Source of the DNA: Candidatus Falkowbacteria bacterium RIFOXYD12_FULL_34_57
Lineage (GTDB): Bacteria > Patescibacteriota > Patescibacteriia > Patescibacteriales > UBA12075
DNA: 50,097 nucleotides
Assembly: GCA_001780285.1 (NCBI GenBank)
Contig: MFGN01000010.1
Coordinates: 1 to 50,097 of the forward strand
Reading direction: 5' to 3'
The notes beneath the pieces were generated by a model that saw nothing but the letters and a program-made list of their open reading frames with translations, was not told where the DNA came from and searched no databases. The translations under genes were made by a program, and so were the position numbers. Positions 5,925 through 16,938 of the stretch are shown here, one piece after another. Position 1 is the first letter of the stretch; each line of letters starts with the position of its first letter.

Positions 5925-6020
5925 GTGGGGCCGGGTCTTGTTTTTTGAATTATTAAATTTTTAGAGATAAAAAAATAGCTATTAAAAGATACATTTTAAT
6001 AGTTATTTCTCAACTGTTCC
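5925..6020. repeat. 96-bp dispersed repeat, copy 1 (includes a terminator hairpin)
   Basis: It is identical to 16843-16938 except for one base (a T/C change in the hairpin arm). It begins GTGGGGCCGGGTCTTG, similar to the end of the nearby tyrosine-transposase element (GGGGTCAGGTCTTG). A 15-bp hairpin (5973-5987 with 5994-6008) is followed on the minus strand by TTTTTTT, so it can terminate the AbiEii-like operon. The rest of 5900-6176 has no gene that I can support. Confidence 0.9.
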
Positions 6021-6176: not shown

Positions 6177-7586
6177 CTAGTATTTTGTATCAACATAATA
6201 ACCATATCTACCATTACATGGATAGCCATTTTTATCTTTATGTTTACCAAGGCTAGTATCACGATTTTTTCTATAAAATTTCTTTCCGCAATAACTACAT
6301 TGATAAACATACCTAGGACCATATGACGAAATTCTAGATCTTGAAGAAAAAACACCTCTTGAATAACTTCTTGGTTCTTTTGTTGGTTTATTTGGATCAA
6401 AAAGATAAGGATTTTCCGGTTTTTCCCCAGCTTTACACAGCTCAATCATGTGTCTAGGTTCAAACTTTTCTTCTGTATTTTCAACAGATTGCATTCTTTC
6501 AGCAATAAATGCTTTTATGCCCGGGGCACTACTCCCTCCTCTTAATTTATAAGCATAAAAATATTCTTTTTCCGTGCCATCTCTTTTTTGCAAATATTTT
6601 AAAGAATAGGGTTCTACTATCCTTTCTTCTCCTTTATAACGAATTTTTAAAAGTGTTTGACTTCTACCAGCATTCATTATTGGGACTCTAAACTCCGGTC
6701 CGAAATAAGCAAATTGCATATATCCGCTATCAGGATATTTACTAAAAATATTTTCCAAATCTTCTACAAATATCTGTATTGCATCTTCAACATTAAAAAC
6801 AAACTGTTTAGCACAAATTACTGCTTTCATCCATTTTTCTCTAAAATAATCAAATGAAGTTTCTTTTAAAATATTTTTTAAAACACTTGGATTTCTTCTG
6901 AATATCGTTTTTTTGATTAAGGCATCAACGACTTCATTTTTATCTAATTCACCACCAAGTAACTTAATAGAATGAACATAGTCAAATAAATCAGGTGCGT
7001 GCTGTCTCTGTAATAAACATTTCAATTTAGTAGCAATTATTTCTTCTACCTTCATACAACGGATAATACAATTAAGCATATTGTCATCAGAATAGGGGTG
7101 AATTAATTTAACATCCTGAATTGGTAAAATGGTTTTATCAAACCTTGTAATATCCATCGATATTTTTATTTTTATATGATCTTGTTTTCCATAAAAATCT
7201 TTAAAATAAACTCTTACATCATAAACCCTCAAACCCGGAATAGGTGCATTTGTTGCAGTAAATTTTTCATCTAATCTATTTGATTCTTTTTCAAAAATGA
7301 CACCGGCTTTTTCAGTTATAAAATCACATACTTTATTAATTTCAGCCAATAAAACAGATTGTTGTATATCATTTGGTATTCCGAAATCTAAATCAGAAGA
7401 ATATCTCGTATTTTCAAAATAACCTTTTCTAAGAGCATTTCCCCCTTTCAAAAAAATAACATCTTTTAAATTACTAACGGTAAAAATACCATATAATAAC
7501 CAACCAAAAACATAATCTCTTTCTACATTTGAAGGATGTATTTCAAATTCTTTAGATTTTTCTTCTATTTCTTTTTTTTCAATCAT
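6177..7586 (-). CDS. AbiEii-family nucleotidyltransferase with WYL-like domain and C-terminal zinc finger
   Basis: Residues 40-70 carry the AbiEii/DNA polymerase-beta-like signature LKGGNALRKGY...RYSSDLDF (Gly48-Gly49, Asp65, Asp67 as the metal-binding pair), with the family's KVEEIIATKL...RQHAPDLFDYVH region following. Residues about 312-375 (IRYKGEERIVEPYSL...YFYAYKL...KAFIAERMQSV) look like a WYL ligand-sensing domain. Around residues 428-462 a CxxC...H...C array suggests a zinc finger. AbiEii toxins are nucleotidyltransferases, and the extra domains are unusual. No AbiEi-type HTH partner is adjacent. It is the last gene of a five-gene operon, 10 bases after the nuclease-like gene. Confidence 0.8.
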   Translation of the reverse strand: MIEKKEIEEKSKEFEIHPSNVERDYVFGWLLYGIFTVSNLKDVIFLKGGNALRKGYFENTRYSSDLDFGIPNDIQQSVLLAEINKVCDFITEKAGVIFEKESNRLDEKFTATNAPIPGLRVYDVRVYFKDFYGKQDHIKIKISMDITRFDKTILPIQDVKLIHPYSDDNMLNCIIRCMKVEEIIATKLKCLLQRQHAPDLFDYVHSIKLLGGELDKNEVVDALIKKTIFRRNPSVLKNILKETSFDYFREKWMKAVICAKQFVFNVEDAIQIFVEDLENIFSKYPDSGYMQFAYFGPEFRVPIMNAGRSQTLLKIRYKGEERIVEPYSLKYLQKRDGTEKEYFYAYKLRGGSSAPGIKAFIAERMQSVENTEEKFEPRHMIELCKAGEKPENPYLFDPNKPTKEPRSYSRGVFSSRSRISSYGPRYVYQCSYCGKKFYRKNRDTSLGKHKDKNGYPCNGRYGYYVDTKY

Positions 7587-7596
7587 TTTTTTATAT

Positions 7597-8145
7597 TTAT
7601 AAATCTGAATAAATTATTCTTAAAATTTCCATATTTTTTTGATATATTTCAATTATCGTTTGCTCTTTTTCTAAACCTAAAACAATATAACAACTAAAAT
7701 CATAATTAAATGTAAAATAGTTACCATCATCATTCTTTATTATCTCTTTTGTTTCAAATATGTGTGGCAACATTTTTCCCGAAAGAACCATTAATTTTGC
7801 TCTATCTTTTTCAGCTTTTTTGGATCTAAGTTTATTTATTTTTTTAACTTCAAAGCAGGCTAAATCGTTTTCTGGATTATTATCTCTCTTTGTTATTACT
7901 ATGTCTACTGAATTCCCATACTCGCTTGTTAATTTTTTTGAACCAACGCTTCCATTAGAAGAATAAGCTCTATTATATTCATGATCAACAAAATATCCAT
8001 CACCAAAATTTTCCTCTTCCAAATATTTTGCTAATTTAAAAGTTATACTACGTTCATTTAGATCTTCAGTAAAAAGATAGGTATCATTTTTATATAATTT
8101 ATCTAAAGAATTTTTAATTTTTTGTTTTAAATTATCAGTATTCAT
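7597..8145 (-). CDS. PD-(D/E)XK nuclease-like protein
   Basis: The 182-residue protein has an N-terminal helix with Glu31 (LNERSITFKLAKYLEEE). This is followed by NSVDIVI (Asp81) and ACFEVKK (Glu99-x-Lys101), the spacing expected for a PD-(D/E)XK active site. The lineup is by eye and has not been tested against profiles, but all catalytic positions are present. It sits 8 bases after the GIY-YIG gene and 10 before the AbiEii-like gene. Two different nuclease folds in one short operon suggest a defence or addiction role. Confidence 0.6.
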   Translation of the reverse strand: MNTDNLKQKIKNSLDKLYKNDTYLFTEDLNERSITFKLAKYLEEENFGDGYFVDHEYNRAYSSNGSVGSKKLTSEYGNSVDIVITKRDNNPENDLACFEVKKINKLRSKKAEKDRAKLMVLSGKMLPHIFETKEIIKNDDGNYFTFNYDFSCYIVLGLEKEQTIIEIYQKNMEILRIIYSDL

Positions 8146-8153
8146 ATATTTTA

Positions 8154-8531
8154 TTATTTATTTAATAAATTATAATCCTTCCTTAATTTATAAATTAAAG
8201 CCTTCTCTACTAAATGGCATAAATCACTATCTTCTGTCTCGACATATTTAAATCTACAATTTTTTAAAATCCACTTTTTTAATTTTAGTCCGGGTTGTCT
8301 GTTTAATCTTTTACATAATGATTGCCTGAATGCGCTAGTTTTTGTTGTATTAGCACCGGAAATATGTTTGGAATTTATCCTCTTATATAGATTATTACTT
8401 TCACCAACATAGATAATCTTTTCTTTTTGATATATCAAATAAACCCCTTGCTTTTTAGGAATTTGTCTTCGATCTATAACAAAACCAGAATTTAATATTT
8501 TTATTATATAACTTTCTATTAACCTTATCAT
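8154..8531 (-). CDS. GIY-YIG nuclease-domain protein
   Basis: The GIY-YIG core is clear: GVYLIY near residue 28, IIYVGESNNLYKRI near residues 38-51 (conserved Arg in YKR), a central RQSLCKRLN helix, and a conserved late Glu in VEKALIYKLRKDYNLLN. At 125 residues it is a stand-alone GIY-YIG domain. It begins with a short extra helix and follows the membrane-protein gene by 5 bases. Stand-alone GIY-YIG proteins range from repair enzymes to homing nucleases; its operon partners argue for defence. Confidence 0.82.
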   Translation of the reverse strand: MIRLIESYIIKILNSGFVIDRRQIPKKQGVYLIYQKEKIIYVGESNNLYKRINSKHISGANTTKTSAFRQSLCKRLNRQPGLKLKKWILKNCRFKYVETEDSDLCHLVEKALIYKLRKDYNLLNK

Positions 8532-8536
8532 AAATT

Positions 8537-9025
8537 TTATTTTCTTTTTATAATAAATTTAACAAGTTTAAATATACCGTAAATAAAAAATATAAAAGCC
8601 ACCAAAAGTAAAATTAATATAAAAAAAGTAAACGGCCAAACTATATATTTTTTCAAAACAATATCTTTAAATAATTCATCCATGTATCCTGTTTTTATCA
8701 ACCCCATTAAACTTAAATTTAGAATAAATGTTATTGATGATAAAATAAATTTCTCACCTATCTTAACAAGACTATTTTTTTCTTCTCCCTCCAAATTATT
8801 AGCATAAGAAAAAACCATTGATGCTAAAGCGATATTTACTGCAATAAGAGCTGTAGCTACAATTAACGCATCTGAAGAACTAATTACTTTCAAATCATAA
8901 ATTTCAAAAAAACCTATAGAAAAAATAGAAGCAATACCAATTAATATTAATGTAAAATATTCAATATAAAAAACATCAAATGCTTTCCATAAATAATTTA
9001 AAAATTTTTTAAATTTTTCCTTCAT
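8537..9025 (-). CDS. Small integral membrane protein (4 predicted TM segments)
   Basis: Four hydrophobic stretches are visible (around residues 20-42, 50-75, 93-112 and 128-155), with basic ends (MKEKFKK at the N-terminus, KLVKFIIKRK at the C-terminus). I do not recognise a family. A small membrane protein encoded with nucleases and an AbiEii toxin could be a membrane effector or anchor; this is inference from context only. It is separated by 14 bases from the upstream gene and 5 from the downstream gene, so co-transcription is likely. Confidence 0.72.
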   Translation of the reverse strand: MKEKFKKFLNYLWKAFDVFYIEYFTLILIGIASIFSIGFFEIYDLKVISSSDALIVATALIAVNIALASMVFSYANNLEGEEKNSLVKIGEKFILSSITFILNLSLMGLIKTGYMDELFKDIVLKKYIVWPFTFFILILLLVAFIFFIYGIFKLVKFIIKRK

Positions 9026-9039
9026 ATTAATAAAAATTA

Positions 9040-9693
9040 TTATTTTATAAAAATATCAATCCTCCTTTTTTGATCTGTTAATAAAAAATCATCAAAAGAA
9101 AATTTTTCTAATGGTACCAATCCTAATCCGGAATATTGCAAAGTCCGATATAAATATCCGAGAAATGACCCGGTATAACGGAATCTACGAACACAGCCTT
9201 CTATTTGCTGAATTATTAATTCATTATATCCTTTCCAGCTAAATAAACTTTTATCATTTTCAATCCACTGATCAACCAGTGAAACAAGTAAACTAATTAT
9301 TTTTTCTTTTGCTAAGATATTCCTCTTTTGTGCTACTCTCACCAATCTGATACTGATCCAATCACAAATAACATAATCCTCTTTATTTACCTGAACCAAA
9401 AATGTATAAAATTTATTATTATATCTTTTCAAAATTAAATTTACTTCCTGTTTGTTTTTATACAATTTAATATACCGCTTTTTAAATCCCCTCATCCATA
9501 ATTTCTGATTCCATCTGTCTAATTTAGAAATAACCAAATCCCAATCCGGATCACCAAGTTCAGTTTTTATATTTTCTATAATAAATTCATAAGAAACATT
9601 ACAACGATATCTTATCCAAGTATCATTAAAGCTTTCAGGTTTTTTCTTTGTTACTGATCTATTAATATTTATAACTGCTTTTTCAAAATTCAT
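9040..9693 (-). CDS. Hypothetical protein (217 aa), first gene of the putative defence operon
   Basis: This is a soluble protein rich in Trp, Tyr and Arg, with no signal peptide or membrane segment and no family that I recognise. Its ATG lies two bases from the left end of the tyrosine-transposase element. The region upstream of the start is therefore transposon sequence and the native promoter or ribosome-binding site has been displaced. The N-terminus may have been trimmed by the insertion. The next gene follows after 14 bases. Confidence 0.65.
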   Translation of the reverse strand: MNFEKAVININRSVTKKKPESFNDTWIRYRCNVSYEFIIENIKTELGDPDWDLVISKLDRWNQKLWMRGFKKRYIKLYKNKQEVNLILKRYNNKFYTFLVQVNKEDYVICDWISIRLVRVAQKRNILAKEKIISLLVSLVDQWIENDKSLFSWKGYNELIIQQIEGCVRRFRYTGSFLGYLYRTLQYSGLGLVPLEKFSFDDFLLTDQKRRIDIFIK

Positions 9694-9694
9694 T

Positions 9695-10654
9695 TAAGGG
9701 GGTCAGGTCTTGAATTATAAGGTTTTATTTTTTGTTAACTATTTTACTAATGGTTGTATAATGTATATTTAGAGCCCTGCCTATTTCTGATAAAGTATAT
9801 CCGTAATCCCAATGAGCTTTATATATATTTTTATTTCTACCAACTTTATCTTTAATACCTTTAAATATTTCTTCTAAATCAGGCCTATGAGCAAATCTTT
9901 CTATCTTTGGTATCTCTTTACTTTTTGACTGCTGTTTAAAATACTTCTTTATTTTATCAATGAATTCTATTGATCCTAATATTGTTTTATTCCCCAATTC
10001 CTTATCTAACAAATCTTCTTCCATTTTTAAATTAATATTTTTAATGTAATTCTCTTTGGCTTTATCCTGATTATTATCATATAATTTAAACGCCCTCTTT
10101 AAATCCAAACATTTTGTGGGCTTTAACTTTCCCGTCATTTCGTTATGGCTACTCCATTTCCATTGCCCCGGATATTTAACCATCTTTGCTTTTACGGGGT
10201 TTAAAACTATATATCTAATAACCTCATAAGCATAATTATCCATATCAACCAATATGGATTTATATCTCCCCTGAAATAAATGCCCCAATACCTTATGCCT
10301 AATATTAAATGCCTGCGTATATTTACCATTTAATTGGCGCATTGATATTGATAAATTTGGATCCGGTGTCTCTATAAATAAATGATAATGATTCGGCATC
10401 AGACAATAAGCATAACTTATAATATTATACTTCTTTAATACCTCTTCATAAACATCTAAAAACTTCTCGTAATCCTTCTTATCTTTAAAAATATTTTGTC
10501 TCCCGTTACCGCGCGACATTATATGATATGTTGCCCCGGAAAATTGTACCCGTATTGGTCTTGCCATATATTTTTTCTTATAAATAAAATATAATTAAAA
10601 TCTTATTTTAATCATATTACATAAAATCTTATAATTCAAGACCTGACCCCCTTA
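9695..10654 (-). mobile_element. REP-type tyrosine-transposase element with 27-bp inverted ends
   Basis: Perfect 27-bp inverted repeats lie at 9695-9721 and 10628-10654, with the core GGGGTCAGGTCTTGAATTA. They enclose a single Y1-transposase gene in a 960-bp unit. Each end is only about 3-60 bases outside the gene. I recall the same CAAGACCTGACCCC-type end beside Y1/RAYT transposases in many bacterial genomes. It sits between a divergent gene pair, right at the start codon of the minus-strand partner. Confidence 0.85.
9725..10567 (-). CDS. REP-associated tyrosine transposase (Y1_Tnp/RAYT)
   Basis: The N-terminal Y1 domain starts MARPIRVQFSGATYHIMSRG. The metal-binding HUH motif is His59-Tyr-His61 in CLMPNHYHLF, and the likely nucleophile is Tyr118 in VIRYIVLNPVKA. 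The C-terminal about 100 residues end with an HTH-like YTLSEIGRALNIHYTTISKIV, as in DnaA-C-type RAYTs. At 280 residues it is full length. The gene is intact and flanked by inverted ends, so the element may still be active. Confidence 0.95.
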   Translation of the reverse strand: MARPIRVQFSGATYHIMSRGNGRQNIFKDKKDYEKFLDVYEEVLKKYNIISYAYCLMPNHYHLFIETPDPNLSISMRQLNGKYTQAFNIRHKVLGHLFQGRYKSILVDMDNYAYEVIRYIVLNPVKAKMVKYPGQWKWSSHNEMTGKLKPTKCLDLKRAFKLYDNNQDKAKENYIKNINLKMEEDLLDKELGNKTILGSIEFIDKIKKYFKQQSKSKEIPKIERFAHRPDLEEIFKGIKDKVGRNKNIYKAHWDYGYTLSEIGRALNIHYTTISKIVNKK

Positions 10655-10745
10655 CTTCTGAATTTAAAAATATATAATAAATAATTTGATATCATCTACT
10701 ATTTTATGCTAAAATAAGAGTATAATTATTTAATTCACCAACAAT

Positions 10746-11150
10746 ATGCCTTTACAAAAAATTATCAGTAAAATCAAATCTAATAATAACAATGAAATTC
10801 CTTATTATTTAGAACGAGAATTTTGGGGATTTATGATTAGTTTTTCACTTTTACCCAGTATTTGGATAACAATTTCTGCATTGGGAATAAATATTTATTT
10901 AATGTTACAATACTTATTTGCAATGGTATACGGATTCTTAATTATAATAACCTTTAATTTATTAAATTTTTCTAATTTAAATATAATATTTTATGCTTTA
11001 TTATATTATATTATATTAGGATTATTTTTTTATTTAACTTTTAAGAAAAAAAAGGTTATTATAATTTTTCCCATTATTATTATTATTATTATTATTAGTT
11101 CTTTAGGGTTATGGAATGGCGCATTGTTTGCAATGGCTGATAATAGTTAA
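10746..11150 (+). CDS. Small integral membrane protein (134 aa)
   Basis: A basic start (MPLQKIISKIKSNNNN) is followed by four hydrophobic segments. The third and fourth run into a poly-isoleucine stretch encoded by about eight ATT repeats (near 11074-11097). There is no recognisable family or signal-peptidase site. It is transcribed divergently from the transposase and followed by a strong terminator, so it is probably a single-gene unit. The trinucleotide run changes the number of Ile residues but not the frame if it slips. Confidence 0.55.
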   Translation: MPLQKIISKIKSNNNNEIPYYLEREFWGFMISFSLLPSIWITISALGINIYLMLQYLFAMVYGFLIIITFNLLNFSNLNIIFYALLYYIILGLFFYLTFKKKKVIIIFPIIIIIIIISSLGLWNGALFAMADNS

Positions 11151-11177
11151 TTAATATTAAATACTACCTCAAATTTA

Positions 11178-11206
11178 AAATTCCTCAACTCTGAGGAATT
11201 TTTTTA
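11178..11206. terminator. Bidirectional terminator between convergent genes
   Basis: The 10-bp perfect stem AAATTCCTCA/TGAGGAATTT (11178-11187 with 11192-11201) has a 4-base loop. A T run follows on the plus strand. It overlaps the stop codon of the convergent minus-strand gene. Confidence 0.85.
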
Positions 11207-11718
11207 TACAACACCTCAACTTCAAAATCAAAATCCAAAAACTCCGGCACATAAATCGTATAATTTTTATTCTCTATTATCTTCTTCTCCGGTATTCTAA
11301 ACCCTAATTCGATCGGATCAAAAAATTCTCCCGACAATATTTCAATATTATCAACATCTATATATACATTTCCCTCTGTGGTTGTACCCGTAGCATTTGC
11401 TAATTTTACTCCGTCAGTAATATTACTAAAAACTAATCTAAAACTACCATCCAAATTTTCTTCTGTAATATTTTTTAATTTTAAACTTGCATATTTAACC
11501 CCCGTCTTCGGATCATATGCTCCGCCGGTTTTAAATACCTGAACATCTTCATCAACATTCTGCCAATTAGGAATGCCAATAGCGTAATGGGAAAAATGAG
11601 TAGTAATAATAGTAGCAAAATTATAATACTCCTCTATAATAGTAGGTAAAACTTCCCATGTATTGGTATCTTCATGATAAAGATAAACTGTTAAATACTT
11701 TTCTTCTATGTCGACCAA
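11185..11718 (-). pseudogene. C-terminal remnant of a secreted surface protein
   Basis: The readable frame starts at a TTG without a Shine-Dalgarno or signal peptide, in the middle of what looks like a domain: VYLYHEDTNTWEVLPT...ITTHFSHYAIG. This resembles the C-terminal part of surface proteins that assess 'THFSxYAI' in Ig/PKD-like modules; the carboxypeptidase at 28913 has a similar NYNTWRPLPT segment. The rest (about residues 60-177) is a cohesin-like or beta-rich extension. The 5' part of the gene appears lost, so I call it a truncated remnant. Confidence 0.5.
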
Positions 11719-11808
11719 AAATTAAAAACCAAAACCATGTAAAGAAAAAATTAATAATATATATTGGAAAAAATATTAACATAATAAATATAAACATACT
11801 CCACAATA

Positions 11809-12030
11809 TCAATAAATATTTTTTATAAATTTCAGTTTTTCCTTTAAAATTTTTTTATAATACCACACAAATATTAAAAAGGTTGGTAAAATTATAAATA
11901 CTATATATTCGATAAACCACCCCGGATCTTTAATTATTAAACCGCTTCCTAAAACAATAAATGGCAGAATAAAAAATATTAAAAAATAATAAAATATGTA
12001 TAATTTTAATTCTTTATTAATGTTGTTCAT
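11809..12030 (-). CDS. Hypothetical two-TM membrane protein (73 aa)
   Basis: The short protein has two hydrophobic segments (FYYFLIFFILPFIVLGSGLII and FIEYIVFIILPTFLIFVW) and a Lys-rich C-terminus. The family is unknown. It begins 10 bases after the stop of the next gene upstream and shares its style (aromatic/Ile-rich, 2-4 TM). The two probably form a unit, possibly arisen by duplication. The frame is open and ATG-started, but no Shine-Dalgarno is evident. Confidence 0.45.
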   Translation of the reverse strand: MNNINKELKLYIFYYFLIFFILPFIVLGSGLIIKDPGWFIEYIVFIILPTFLIFVWYYKKILKEKLKFIKNIY

Positions 12031-12364: not shown

Positions 12365-15300
12365 TTAATTTAAATAATTATTAATACATTGTATTCTGTT
12401 TATTATTATATCAAAAATATCTTTGGTTAGCCAATTTTTATTATACCATTGGTCAACGATCCTTTCCAGAAAATCTTTAGTGTTCATAATAATATTTTGA
12501 TATTCTCCGTCTTTCTTCTCCGTACTTATTTCCAGATGCTGTTTGATCAGTTCTAACTTATGGATCAATAAATCCTTTTTCTTTTCTTCTTTAATATTCC
12601 CTTCTTCATATAAATTATTGAATAGATCCAATAATCCCTCCAGACAATCCTGTTCTTCCAGGGTGATTTCTGTGGATTTTACTTTTTCTCTGTTACCGGC
12701 TTTGTCTATTCCATAATAATAAATAGTATAGTCTCCCTGTTCTTCTATAATCGGCTGATTATTTTCATCATAAACCTTCCAAGTACTTGTGCTATTAATG
12801 CTGTATTTAATATTCAACACTCCTGACAGATTATCGTTAGCTATAAAACCAATAACAGCTGGCAAATAATATGCGCCGTCCGCTGCCTGTTCCGCAGATA
12901 TTTCAATATTTGTAACCGGAAGTTCATTATCCCGCGCTTCATCCATGCTTAAAACAGATGAAGGTTCGATCGTTTCTTCAAATGCGCCGTCACCGTCAGA
13001 ATCTTTCAATATCTCTATATTTTGAATATTACGCGCGCTATCCACGCTATATTTTACCTTTGTATTTATTGATCCCAAAGAGATATCATGAAAATAAACC
13101 AAGTCTTCATAATCTCCGTTATCTATCTTTTGAATACGGGCATCAAATATTCCCTGATCTGTACTGCTGCCTATAATAATATAATTTCTTCCTGCCGGCA
13201 AAAAGGCAAATTTATCATGCCCAATAATATCGTATGTTACTCCGGGAATATTCATTTCTATATCTCCGTTTTTATCCGGACCGACATGATTATAGCTTTC
13301 ATCATAAATATGCAGATCTATCGGCGAATGAAAACTGACCTGTGTGCCGGAAAAATCACAAATATTATTAGTAGCGCTTAAATTATTAAAACCGCTAAAA
13401 TCAAAATTATCTTCCCGGTTGTTTAATATGGACATTATTAATTGTCTTACACCGTTCGTGCTAGGCAGATAAGCATGCGCTATTCCGGAAACATAATATT
13501 GTTTTTCAGCGTTAAATCCCATAGCGCTGCGCAAGGGTACTGTACCGTCGCCGTTGAACTGATAAATATTATAACTTTTATCATCCGTAGACATTCTATC
13601 CTCTACTCTAATCATTCCTAATGTCGGTACTCCGCAGCCGACGATATTATATGAATTGGGAACATACAGATCATCGATTTCATCATGGATAGTTTGCGCC
13701 CGGTCTAACAAATTCCAATTCCGTCCTGATAATTTCATAAAATCAATTGAAGCATCATAATCCAAAGCCGGTATGCTATCAGCGGTATCATAAATATAAT
13801 GATGATAATAATAATTTTCCGGATCAAAATAATCTCTGCTTGGTAATAACTGGTAGATTGACGGGAAATTTTGGGAAATTATTTGAGTTCTATTACTATC
13901 TAATCCAAATATGAACATTTTCATACCTAGATCATCCCCATACTGTAATATTTTAAAAGCTTTAGGCGATCCATAATGAGGGCTGGCAATATCTATGAAT
14001 TTATCTATGGATGAAGTACCAAAAAGATGTATATACTTTTTAGCCACTAGCCCGCCCATAGAATGAGCTATTACATCTACTTTATCTATGCCCAGTTGAT
14101 TCTTTATTTTTAAAATATTATTAGCCAAATTATTAGGATCATTATTATTTTCACCGGCTATATATGAAATATCCAATCTCCAATCATAAGGAAATACAAA
14201 TAGATCTTTATTTTCTTCATAACCTTCATTTTCTAATTCAGTAATTAAATCTTGAAAAAAATCATAATTGTCTATTTCTCGAAAAATATCAATAACTACA
14301 ATATTATTTTCATTAGATATACCATTATCCGGTAAAATTAATTGATTTAAATAAGAATCATCTCCAGGCATTGCCATATTAATTAAATTTGGCCATATTT
14401 CTTCATTAGTATGTGCATCGTTCAAATAACTGGCAATTATTCCGGGTATAATCAATACCGGAATGCGTGAAATTTCATTAATCGTCCTTACCTCGCTCCA
14501 CTCCCCCGGCAATCCGTTAATTATTGGTCGTACTCTCCAATAACTGCTTGTGTTGATATAATATTTAATACTATATCTATTATCATAAACAATACTCGCT
14601 GTCGGCCAATTATTTTGATCGTCTGTAATATTGAATTCATAATAATCGGCGTTTGAAATAGAATCCCAAACAGCATTAGTGCGGTAATTATTCCAGATGC
14701 CGTTGTTGGTAATGTTTCCGGAAATATTCATGATGAGAAAAACAAAGTATGACCAAGGAGTTCCTTCGTCTTGGATCGTGCCGTTGTTCTCTATATCACC
14801 GTTTACTGTTAATTCGCACCCGACATATTGTTTATTTTGTATTACCACATCTTCGTCTACCACCACATTTCCGTTTATCTCTGTGGAAGTAAGGATCGTT
14901 TTTATGCCCGGCCCCTTGAATTGTACCTCATCCGCGGTCATATAATATCTGATATTTTGATTGCCTGTGTCAAAAATTATTTTAGGGGCGGTGATATGCG
15001 TTCTGCCGTCAAAGAATGATCCGTCCGCCATGATGAGACTTCCCTGCCCGACAATTGTCCCGCCCCACTCTATTCTTCCTAAAATAGTAATACTTTGATC
15101 TTCATTAGGTAGAGCAACTGTTTTATTATTCAATGAAAAATATCCGTTGAATACCGGGCTGTTCAATATAGTAAAATCATCATTAACTATAATATTTCCT
15201 CTTAAAGGATCTGTACCCGATATGCTTCTGGCGTTATTTGAAACTAAATAAGTTCTATTATTTTTCCAAACTCCGTTATTTACAATATCGCCGCTGACTT

Positions 15301-16602
15301 CCAAAGAAAAATAGCAGGTATATGGTGAACAATCACTTCCTTCATCCTGGATGGTTCCTCTATTCTCTACATTACCGTTAATCTTTACGGTATTAGCCAC
15401 ATACTGTTTATTCTGAATAACTACTCCTTCTTCTATGGCAACATTTCCGTTCAGGGTCATACCATGAGCCATGGTCTTTGTCCCCGGTCCTTTAAAAATA
15501 ATCTCAGATGCGGTTAGTTGATAATCAACCATTGTTTGATCTCCTGCTGAAAATATTACTTTCGGCGCGGTAATATAGGCTCCGTCAAATTTTGACCCGT
15601 CACCCATAATCAATGTTCCTTGTCCTGCAATCTCTCCGCTTCCTTCTATTCCGGATAAAATGGTAATGCTTTGATTAATGTCGTTTAAGGTTATGGTAGC
15701 GCCCAAATAGAATATTCCCCCGAACACAGGATTACCTAACATCTCAAAATTATCATTAGCATAAATATTCCCGCCAAGAGGATTTCCGTTTATTGTTCTG
15801 ATATTATTTCCTGTTAGATAAGTGCGATAATTGTTCCAAATGCCGTTATTTTCGATATTTCCGGATGAATATACATATAATCCATAACTTGTATTATTTT
15901 GGATACTGCCGTTATTTACAATATCGCCCTCTACTGTTAATGAAAAATAATTTGCGTCTTTATTATATGCTATTGCGCTTTCCTCTATCGCCAAATCTCC
16001 GTAAATATTTGTACCACCTACTATTTCTTTGTTTCCCGGACCGGCGAATAATACTTCTCCTGCGTAAAGAGATCCTTTGATCTTTTGGTATCCGGAATCA
16101 AATATGATCTTCGGGGCTGTAACGCTATTTACAAAAAAACTAGATCCGTCTCCGATGATCAAACTTCCCTGTCCCCATTCCGCCAAAATAAAAATTCCCG
16201 TTAAATACGGGACTGTTTAATATTTCAAAATCATCATCAATGTAAATATTTCCTCTTAACGGATTGCCGGTTATGCTTCTGGAATTATTTCCGGTTAAAT
16301 AAGTACGATAATTATTCCATGTACCGCTATTCTGTATATCTCCCGACACCCGCACACTTAACCCGTAAGCATCGCTGTTCTGAATATACCCGTCATTCAA
16401 TACATCTCCGTTCACGGTCAGATAATAATAATTGGTATTTCTGTTCTCCAATGTCCCTCCGACGGCCCTCCCATGTAGTAGTAGCTGTCCATTTGCCTCC
16501 GGCCGCTACAGAACCAATAGTAGCCGCGCTGACTCCGTTAATGCTCCACAACAATAAACCGGCGCTGATAATTATACCCCCTAAAAATATTCTTTTGATC
16601 AT
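12365..16602 (-). pseudogene. Secreted giant with beta-repeat region and LCAT/lipase-like alpha/beta-hydrolase domain; frameshifted
   Basis: An ATG at 16602 starts a good signal peptide (MIKRIFLGGIIISAGLLLW...GVSA) and then AATIGSVAAGGKWTATTTWEG. The frame changes near 16460, continuing as VGGTLENRNTNYYYLTVNGD, and again near 16185, where about 20 residues of the repeat unit are missing. From 16186 a 1273-residue frame is open. It contains several beta-helix-like repeats (SITGNPLRGNI, NSPVFNG, SLIMADGS), then a hydrolase with PVLIIPGI, FPYDWRLD and the nucleophile Ser709 in IAHSMGGLVAKKY. An OmpL47-like Ig segment (GYTIYYYGIDKAGNREK type) and a helical tail follow. Lipid or ester hydrolysis at the cell surface is the likely role. 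The two shifts could be real decay or sequencing error. Confidence 0.75.
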
Positions 16603-16842: not shown

Positions 16843-16938
16843 GTGGGGCCGGGTCTTGTTTTTTGAATTATTAAATTTTTAGAGATAAAAAAATAGCTAT
16901 TAAAAGATACATTTTAATAGCTATTTCTCAACTGTTCC
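16843..16938. repeat. 96-bp dispersed repeat, copy 2 (includes a terminator hairpin)
   Basis: This is a near-identical, same-orientation copy of 5925-6020. The hairpin AAATAGCTATTAAAA (16891-16905) pairs perfectly with 16912-16926 around a 6-base loop. On the minus strand it is followed by TTTTTTT. It lies 37-50 bases after the STAND gene and probably terminates it. Confidence 0.9.

Follow-up and report, generated by a model that had tools for sequence, protein, structure and literature searches.

The window analysed here is a stretch of 50,097 nucleotides from Candidatus Falkowbacteria bacterium RIFOXYD12_FULL_34_57 (contig MFGN01000010.1), and its minus strand carries a compact row of five genes (9693 to 6177), the last of which encodes a 469-residue AbiEii/DUF1814 nucleotidyltransferase with a WYL domain and a zinc motif behind it (6177 to 7586). 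Genes of this toxin family travel without the usual AbiE antitoxin, often joined to unrelated phage-defence operons and elsewhere alone. With a probability of about one half, we read the row as a set of distinct defence-type modules, acquired and low in GC, whose chief member is an AbiE-type toxin encoded by a single gene, lacking an antitoxin and under the control of its own WYL-zinc tail.

The toxin can be sub-divided into three parts. The Pfam family AbiEii (PF08843) matches residues 29-246 with an E value of 1.3e-22, and the AlphaFold2 (AF2) model of the whole protein has a mean predicted local distance difference test (pLDDT) of 85.1 and a predicted template modelling score (pTM) of 0.77. 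In this model, the nucleotidyltransferase domain (residues 1-285; 6732 to 7586, minus strand) has a MenT3/MenT4-like fold, with VIA-align Z scores of 19-21 over 251-261 residues at 3.2-4.0 Å against MenT3, MenT4 and TglT (6y56, 6j7p, and others). Its motifs comprise G48 and G49 (motif I), R61, D65, and D67 (II), K187 and R194 (III), and D199 and D202 (IV), all invariant in 27 of 27 aligned sequences save G49, which is found in 26. Toxicity of AbiEii is abolished by mutating the glycine of motif I, the arginine and two aspartates of motif II, the lysine and arginine of motif III, or the aspartate of motif IV (PMC3985639). These essential residues correspond to G48, R61, D65, D67, K187, R194, and D199/D202 in the window toxin, the equivalence for motif IV being made by pattern, with a leading basic residue that varies. 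From the motifs and the predicted fold, we infer that the domain is a competent nucleotidyltransferase.

Behind the enzyme lies a WYL (Sm/SH3-like) domain at residues 289-396 (6399 to 6722, minus strand), whose predicted fold matches DriD with single-stranded DNA (ssDNA; 8tp8), BrxR, PafBC, and CapW with ssDNA (9c5g) at VIA-align Z scores of 9-10 over 80-93 residues. The Pfam WYL family (PF13280) reaches 14.7 bits on the window toxin, under its cut-off of 21.8, and gives weak matches in 18 of 27 toxin relatives (best 9e-4), while the alignment of the domain has no match among sequences of solved structures. Y317, R322, E325, P326, Y327, E341, and Y342 are invariant in the 27 sequences, and position 358 is K or R. 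The chain ends in a C2HC zinc motif (residues 428-460, with C430, C433, H449, and C457; 6207 to 6305, minus strand), which is kept in 25-26 of 27 relatives and also in an AbiEi-linked group described below. A 79-base piece of the WYL region (6529-6607) recurs with 98.7% identity at 871-949, an unrelated site near the start of the window that adjoins an interrupted ATP-grasp-like frame.

AbiEi is absent from the operon by inspection of open reading frames (ORFs), Pfam, and PADLOC, and no match to AbiEi_4 in the source genome reaches the family cut-off. The initial annotation had named an AbiEii toxin with WYL-like and zinc-finger parts and had noted the absence of AbiEi, and each of these calls is borne out. 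Searching GTDB with a full-length toxin alignment yields 30 loci at 35-71% identity, and Pfam detects no AbiEi in their immediate neighbours. They span Patescibacteria, Omnitrophota, Bacteroidota, Pseudomonadota, Acidobacteriota, Planctomycetota, Bacillota, and one Lokiarchaeota bin, with the caution that some taxon labels of metagenome-assembled genomes (MAGs) may be wrong. The toxin gene is intact in 27 of the 30 and interrupted or cut in three (L085, L086, L087). Short or stop-broken stretches of the family also occur in other Patescibacteria (L011 in G059, L020 in G103, L165 in G293, and G450:C7:9882-10157), which suggests frequent decay.

The nearest upstream ORF lies on the opposite strand in 15 of 32 toxin loci examined, so that the toxin gene is probably monocistronic there. 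A shared partner was ruled out by an all-against-all comparison of the neighbours, in which none recurs widely except AbiEi in a remote group of toxins at ~26% identity (Rhizobium and Thiodictyon plasmids; L028-L030). These loci have the same three domains in the toxin, which is preceded by AbiEi, and in the tree a long branch (100/100) separates the sequences without AbiEi from this group; the tree is midpoint-rooted, and the choice of root does not fix the direction of AbiEi loss. Apart from AbiEi, the only direct neighbour that recurs beside the toxin is a DUF3800-type gene, present with a 4-base overlap at the toxin stop in two loci of alphaproteobacteria (L025:9344-10108 and L084:9392-10156).

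There are several loci in which the toxin gene has joined a defence operon. In a Portnoybacteria MAG (L067, 73-6729), it sits inside a type I restriction-modification (R-M) operon, with an HsdM/S fusion on one side and HsdR on the other. Elsewhere, it stands behind a D12 methyltransferase and a type II restriction enzyme (L071), behind Vsr, Z1, and a NOV_C protein that matches PDC-S36 (L075), behind a RelA/SpoT-domain protein that matches PDC-S33 (L063), and behind an SbcB-like exonuclease (L083), or precedes a Septu PtuA-like ATPase and a TIR protein (L069). It overlaps the upstream gene by 4 bases in L071, L075, L079, and L080. We found no description in the open-access literature of a single-gene habit of AbiEii, whether fused to WYL or orphaned, and this plug-in habit of AbiEii-WYL-zinc genes across defence operons appears to be undescribed.

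The fusion itself is already known. WYL-DUF1814 fusions were listed in 2014 by Makarova et al. under the label "AbiGII-like nucleotidyltransferase (DUF1814)", with ligand sensing proposed; the fusion is one entry in that list, and the main text mentions neither the loss of AbiEi nor the zinc tail nor the single-gene spread (PMC4012209). The window toxin shares with the AbiE type IV toxin-antitoxin system (PMC3985639) a DUF1814 nucleotidyltransferase with motifs I-IV intact, but differs from it in having no AbiEi, in its added WYL and zinc domains, and in being often a single gene. MenT3/MenT4 (TglT) have the fold of residues 1-285 in common with it (Z ~20); unlike the window toxin, however, MenT toxins rely on separate MenA antitoxins and have no WYL tail. 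BrxR, CapW, PafBC, and DriD resemble it in the WYL fold and sense nucleic-acid or nucleotide ligands in defence or DNA damage, but they are transcription factors, whereas the output domain here is an enzyme. The guard PrrC, which resides inside hsdMSR, is held by EcoprrI and cuts tRNA anticodons. The toxin in L067 is likewise a putative translation-blocking enzyme embedded in an R-M operon, though it differs in being a nucleotidyltransferase with its own sensor fold.

In the best reading of the protein, an antitoxin-less AbiE-type toxin would be self-contained and controlled by its own WYL-zinc tail. The tail, on the same chain, would keep the MenT/AbiEii-fold enzyme part inactive and would read a nucleic-acid ligand such as ssDNA or oligonucleotides derived from DNA damage or degradation. 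By analogy with PafB and DriD, whose WYL domains bind ssDNA (PMC11804915, PMC12340889), the tail probably senses ssDNA or nucleotide fragments. Of the PafB residues needed for ssDNA binding, R181 and Y196 plausibly correspond to the invariant R322 and Y342. The ligand would rise, for example, once a nearby nuclease or restriction enzyme has acted or been blocked, and in the window the GIY-YIG and PD-(D/E)XK proteins, as independent nucleases, could also supply the signal. Since MenT toxins add to tRNA ends (PMC10435456, PMC11541572), the active domain would add nucleotides to the 3' ends of tRNA, stop translation, and so limit the phage burst, with abortive infection as the outcome. MenT toxins can also be silenced by induced auto-phosphorylation (PMC11375011), and auto-phosphorylation at S63 is a possible alternative route of control. 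Because no dedicated partner would be required, such a gene could be joined to many unrelated defence operons. We propose, tentatively and at odds well short of even, that this widespread antitoxin-less AbiE class with its own WYL-zinc sensor is a portable back-up switch, added to restriction or nuclease defence operons, that would read the products of DNA breakdown and stop translation by altering tRNA once the first line of defence has acted or failed.

Several observations weigh against the main reading. The distant three-domain group retains AbiEi, which means that the tail is not necessarily a substitute for the antitoxin. Non-defence neighbours exist, such as a ribonucleotide reductase near the toxin in L088, and the neighbouring ORFs were called mechanically, so that antitoxins in the form of small peptides or RNAs may have been overlooked. 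The pair R211/R214, essential in PafB, has no evident conserved counterpart, position 363 varying freely, and the ligand of the toxin's WYL domain may therefore differ. The WYL-zinc part could, moreover, be substrate-binding instead of regulatory.

This last alternative, in which the tail binds tRNA or another nucleic acid as substrate and the enzyme is always active or regulated through expression alone, is rather unlikely in our view. Sm/SH3 barrels bind both RNA and DNA (PMC9122601), the zinc motif also hints at nucleic-acid binding, and this tail is also found in the relatives linked to AbiEi. Without an antitoxin, however, a MenT-like toxin that is active at all times should not be tolerated, and the solitary copies are mostly intact.

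We consider it improbable that the toxin is mainly an addiction or stabilization module of mobile islands, with an antitoxin that is unlinked or unrecognized. AbiE can stabilize mobile elements (PMC3985639), relatives of the toxin occur on plasmids and are scattered over phyla, and broken remnants exist; the neighbour comparison, however, found no recurrent partner, and no AbiEi_4 match in the source genome passes the cut-off.

The four remaining genes, all on the minus strand, are separated from one another and from the toxin by 14, 5, 8, and 10 bases (9693 to 6177). Next to the toxin is a 182-residue protein (7597 to 8145) in which D81...E99-x-K101 is invariant in 4 homologues, as are E31, R32, D54, E56, Y57, and N58; this catalytic motif suggests a PD-(D/E)XK-like nuclease. 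It has no match in a Pfam search or among sequences of solved structures, and PADLOC gives a partial match to PD-Lambda-3_A over residues 8-64 only (E value 1.4e-9), the other operon proteins having no PD-Lambda-3 match. A stand-alone GIY-YIG endonuclease domain of 125 residues (8154 to 8531) follows, with two Pfam families over cut-off (PF20815, 4.3e-12, 46.7 bits; PF01541, 9.2e-8, 32.7 bits) and the G-Y..Y-G core motif at residues 29-43. The third gene (8537 to 9025) encodes an orphan membrane protein of 162 residues with about four hydrophobic segments by hydropathy, presumably helices, and without a relative among 58 other related genomes.

The first gene of the row encodes a helical protein of 217 residues (U217; 9040 to 9693), for which the AF2 model has a pLDDT of 82.7. 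For residues ~94-197, the likeness to sigma-70 region 2 is one of fold only, the best VIA-align match being SigC (2o7g; Z score 8.0, 85 residues, 2.4 Å) and most of the top rows being sigma factors, without Pfam or profile-profile support for that region. A true sigma factor was rejected, as hhalign comparisons with primary and extracytoplasmic function (ECF) sigma factors did not outscore the top one among 30 shuffled controls; we treat the likeness of the C-terminal half of the model to sigma region 2 as a lead. Relatives of U217 are found in a few Patescibacteria, and the N-terminal unit is repeated in the longer ones. This family (9040-9693 in the window; L047:7172-9901; L048:5134-9869) combines helical repeats with the sigma-region-2-like fold and is located in defence operons controlled by S24/LexA-type regulators. 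In one genome (G334), the relative adjoins a ThsB-like TIR protein, a C14 caspase, and an S24/LexA-like regulator, a TIR and caspase pair like that of caspase-type Thoeris; in another (G343), it adjoins PDC-S53, a candidate defence helicase, and a further S24 regulator, and a second, remote copy lies near PDC-S59.

Tight packing of this kind invites one to read the row as one system, and the initial annotation, which had described five minus-strand genes spaced by 5-14 bases, a four-transmembrane protein, a GIY-YIG gene, and a PD-(D/E)XK-like nuclease, proposed an undescribed abortive-infection or anti-plasmid system with the nucleases as effectors. The gene calls, the spacing, and the defence flavour are upheld; the single system is not, and the likely effector is the nucleotidyltransferase itself, while both nucleases look like separate modules. 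A lineage-specific system, with U217 and the membrane protein as sensor or anchor and the two nucleases and the nucleotidyltransferase as effectors, is in our estimate decidedly improbable. The co-directional 5-14 base gaps speak for it, and a membrane protein next to a GIY-YIG nuclease recalls SNIPE; SNIPE, however, is defined by transmembrane, DUF4041, and GIY-YIG parts on one chain (PMC13190303), and here the membrane protein and GIY-YIG are separate genes without a DUF4041 match. None of the other four genes lies near the AbiEii relatives in any of the 30 GTDB loci, and in none of 59 related genomes are two of the five adjacent. Relatives of the PD-(D/E)XK protein (G301, G297) and of U217 (G203, G282, G334, G343) occur without the other genes. 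For the membrane and GIY-YIG genes no close relatives were found, a search of 240 genomes of the phylum for the latter giving weak partial matches only, nearly all in UvrC-size frames (400-780 residues). The context of the AbiEii loci and separate searches for the other genes show no shared order, and a conserved five-gene system was rejected.

Carriage of the set by a phage or plasmid was also rejected. AbiEii has no match in phage records, and viral contigs hold six AbiEii-type loci at 25-30% identity and a single remote PD-(D/E)XK match, without relatives of U217, the GIY-YIG protein, or the membrane protein; among the five genes, plasmids match only AbiEii and one weak PD-(D/E)XK. Least probable of all is that the nucleotidyltransferase domain has been repurposed, for example for synthesis of a nucleotide signal or antibiotic-type modification. 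Pol-beta nucleotidyltransferases are diverse and ANT(2'') is a structural match (Z ~10.8), but MenT/TglT match best and clearly higher (Z ~20) and the DUF1814-specific motifs III and IV are invariant.

The GC content of positions 7000-12000 is 23-26%, against ~35% on both flanks, which suggests acquisition. Upstream of the operon is a RAYT-type (Y1/REP-associated tyrosine) transposase (9725 to 10567, minus strand; PF01797, 2.2e-14), which scores 76.3 bits against NF047646, where the cut-off is 80. Its unit is bounded by a 34-base inverted repeat, with one end nearest the operon (9695 to 9728), containing CAAGACCTGACCCC, and the other at the far side (10621 to 10654). Motifs like CAAGACCTGACCCC, which are REP-like, occur in four copies in the window (5927, 9699, 10637, and 16845) where 0.1 are expected, and two of the four bracket the transposase as inverted ends. 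A 96-base repeat is shared at 99% identity by 5925-6020 and 16843-16938, and a repetitive protein of 1273 residues (12365-16186) carries, near its centre, what appears to be an HSMGG motif of the lipase/acyltransferase type.

We recommend that tight gene rows in Patescibacteria not be read as single systems. This row consists of ordinary-looking defence genes that hold a member of a well-formed single-gene toxin family, a variant of AbiE. AbiE has been taken to need AbiEi, yet there is a large branch, intact and free of AbiEi, whose members have a WYL domain built in. This raises the question of whether a ligand sensor may act in cis to control a nucleotidyltransferase toxin. If it does, nucleic-acid sensing by WYL domains, so far seen mainly in transcription factors, would be coupled directly to a translation-stopping enzyme, and this would explain the presence of one gene within or behind so many unrelated defence operons.

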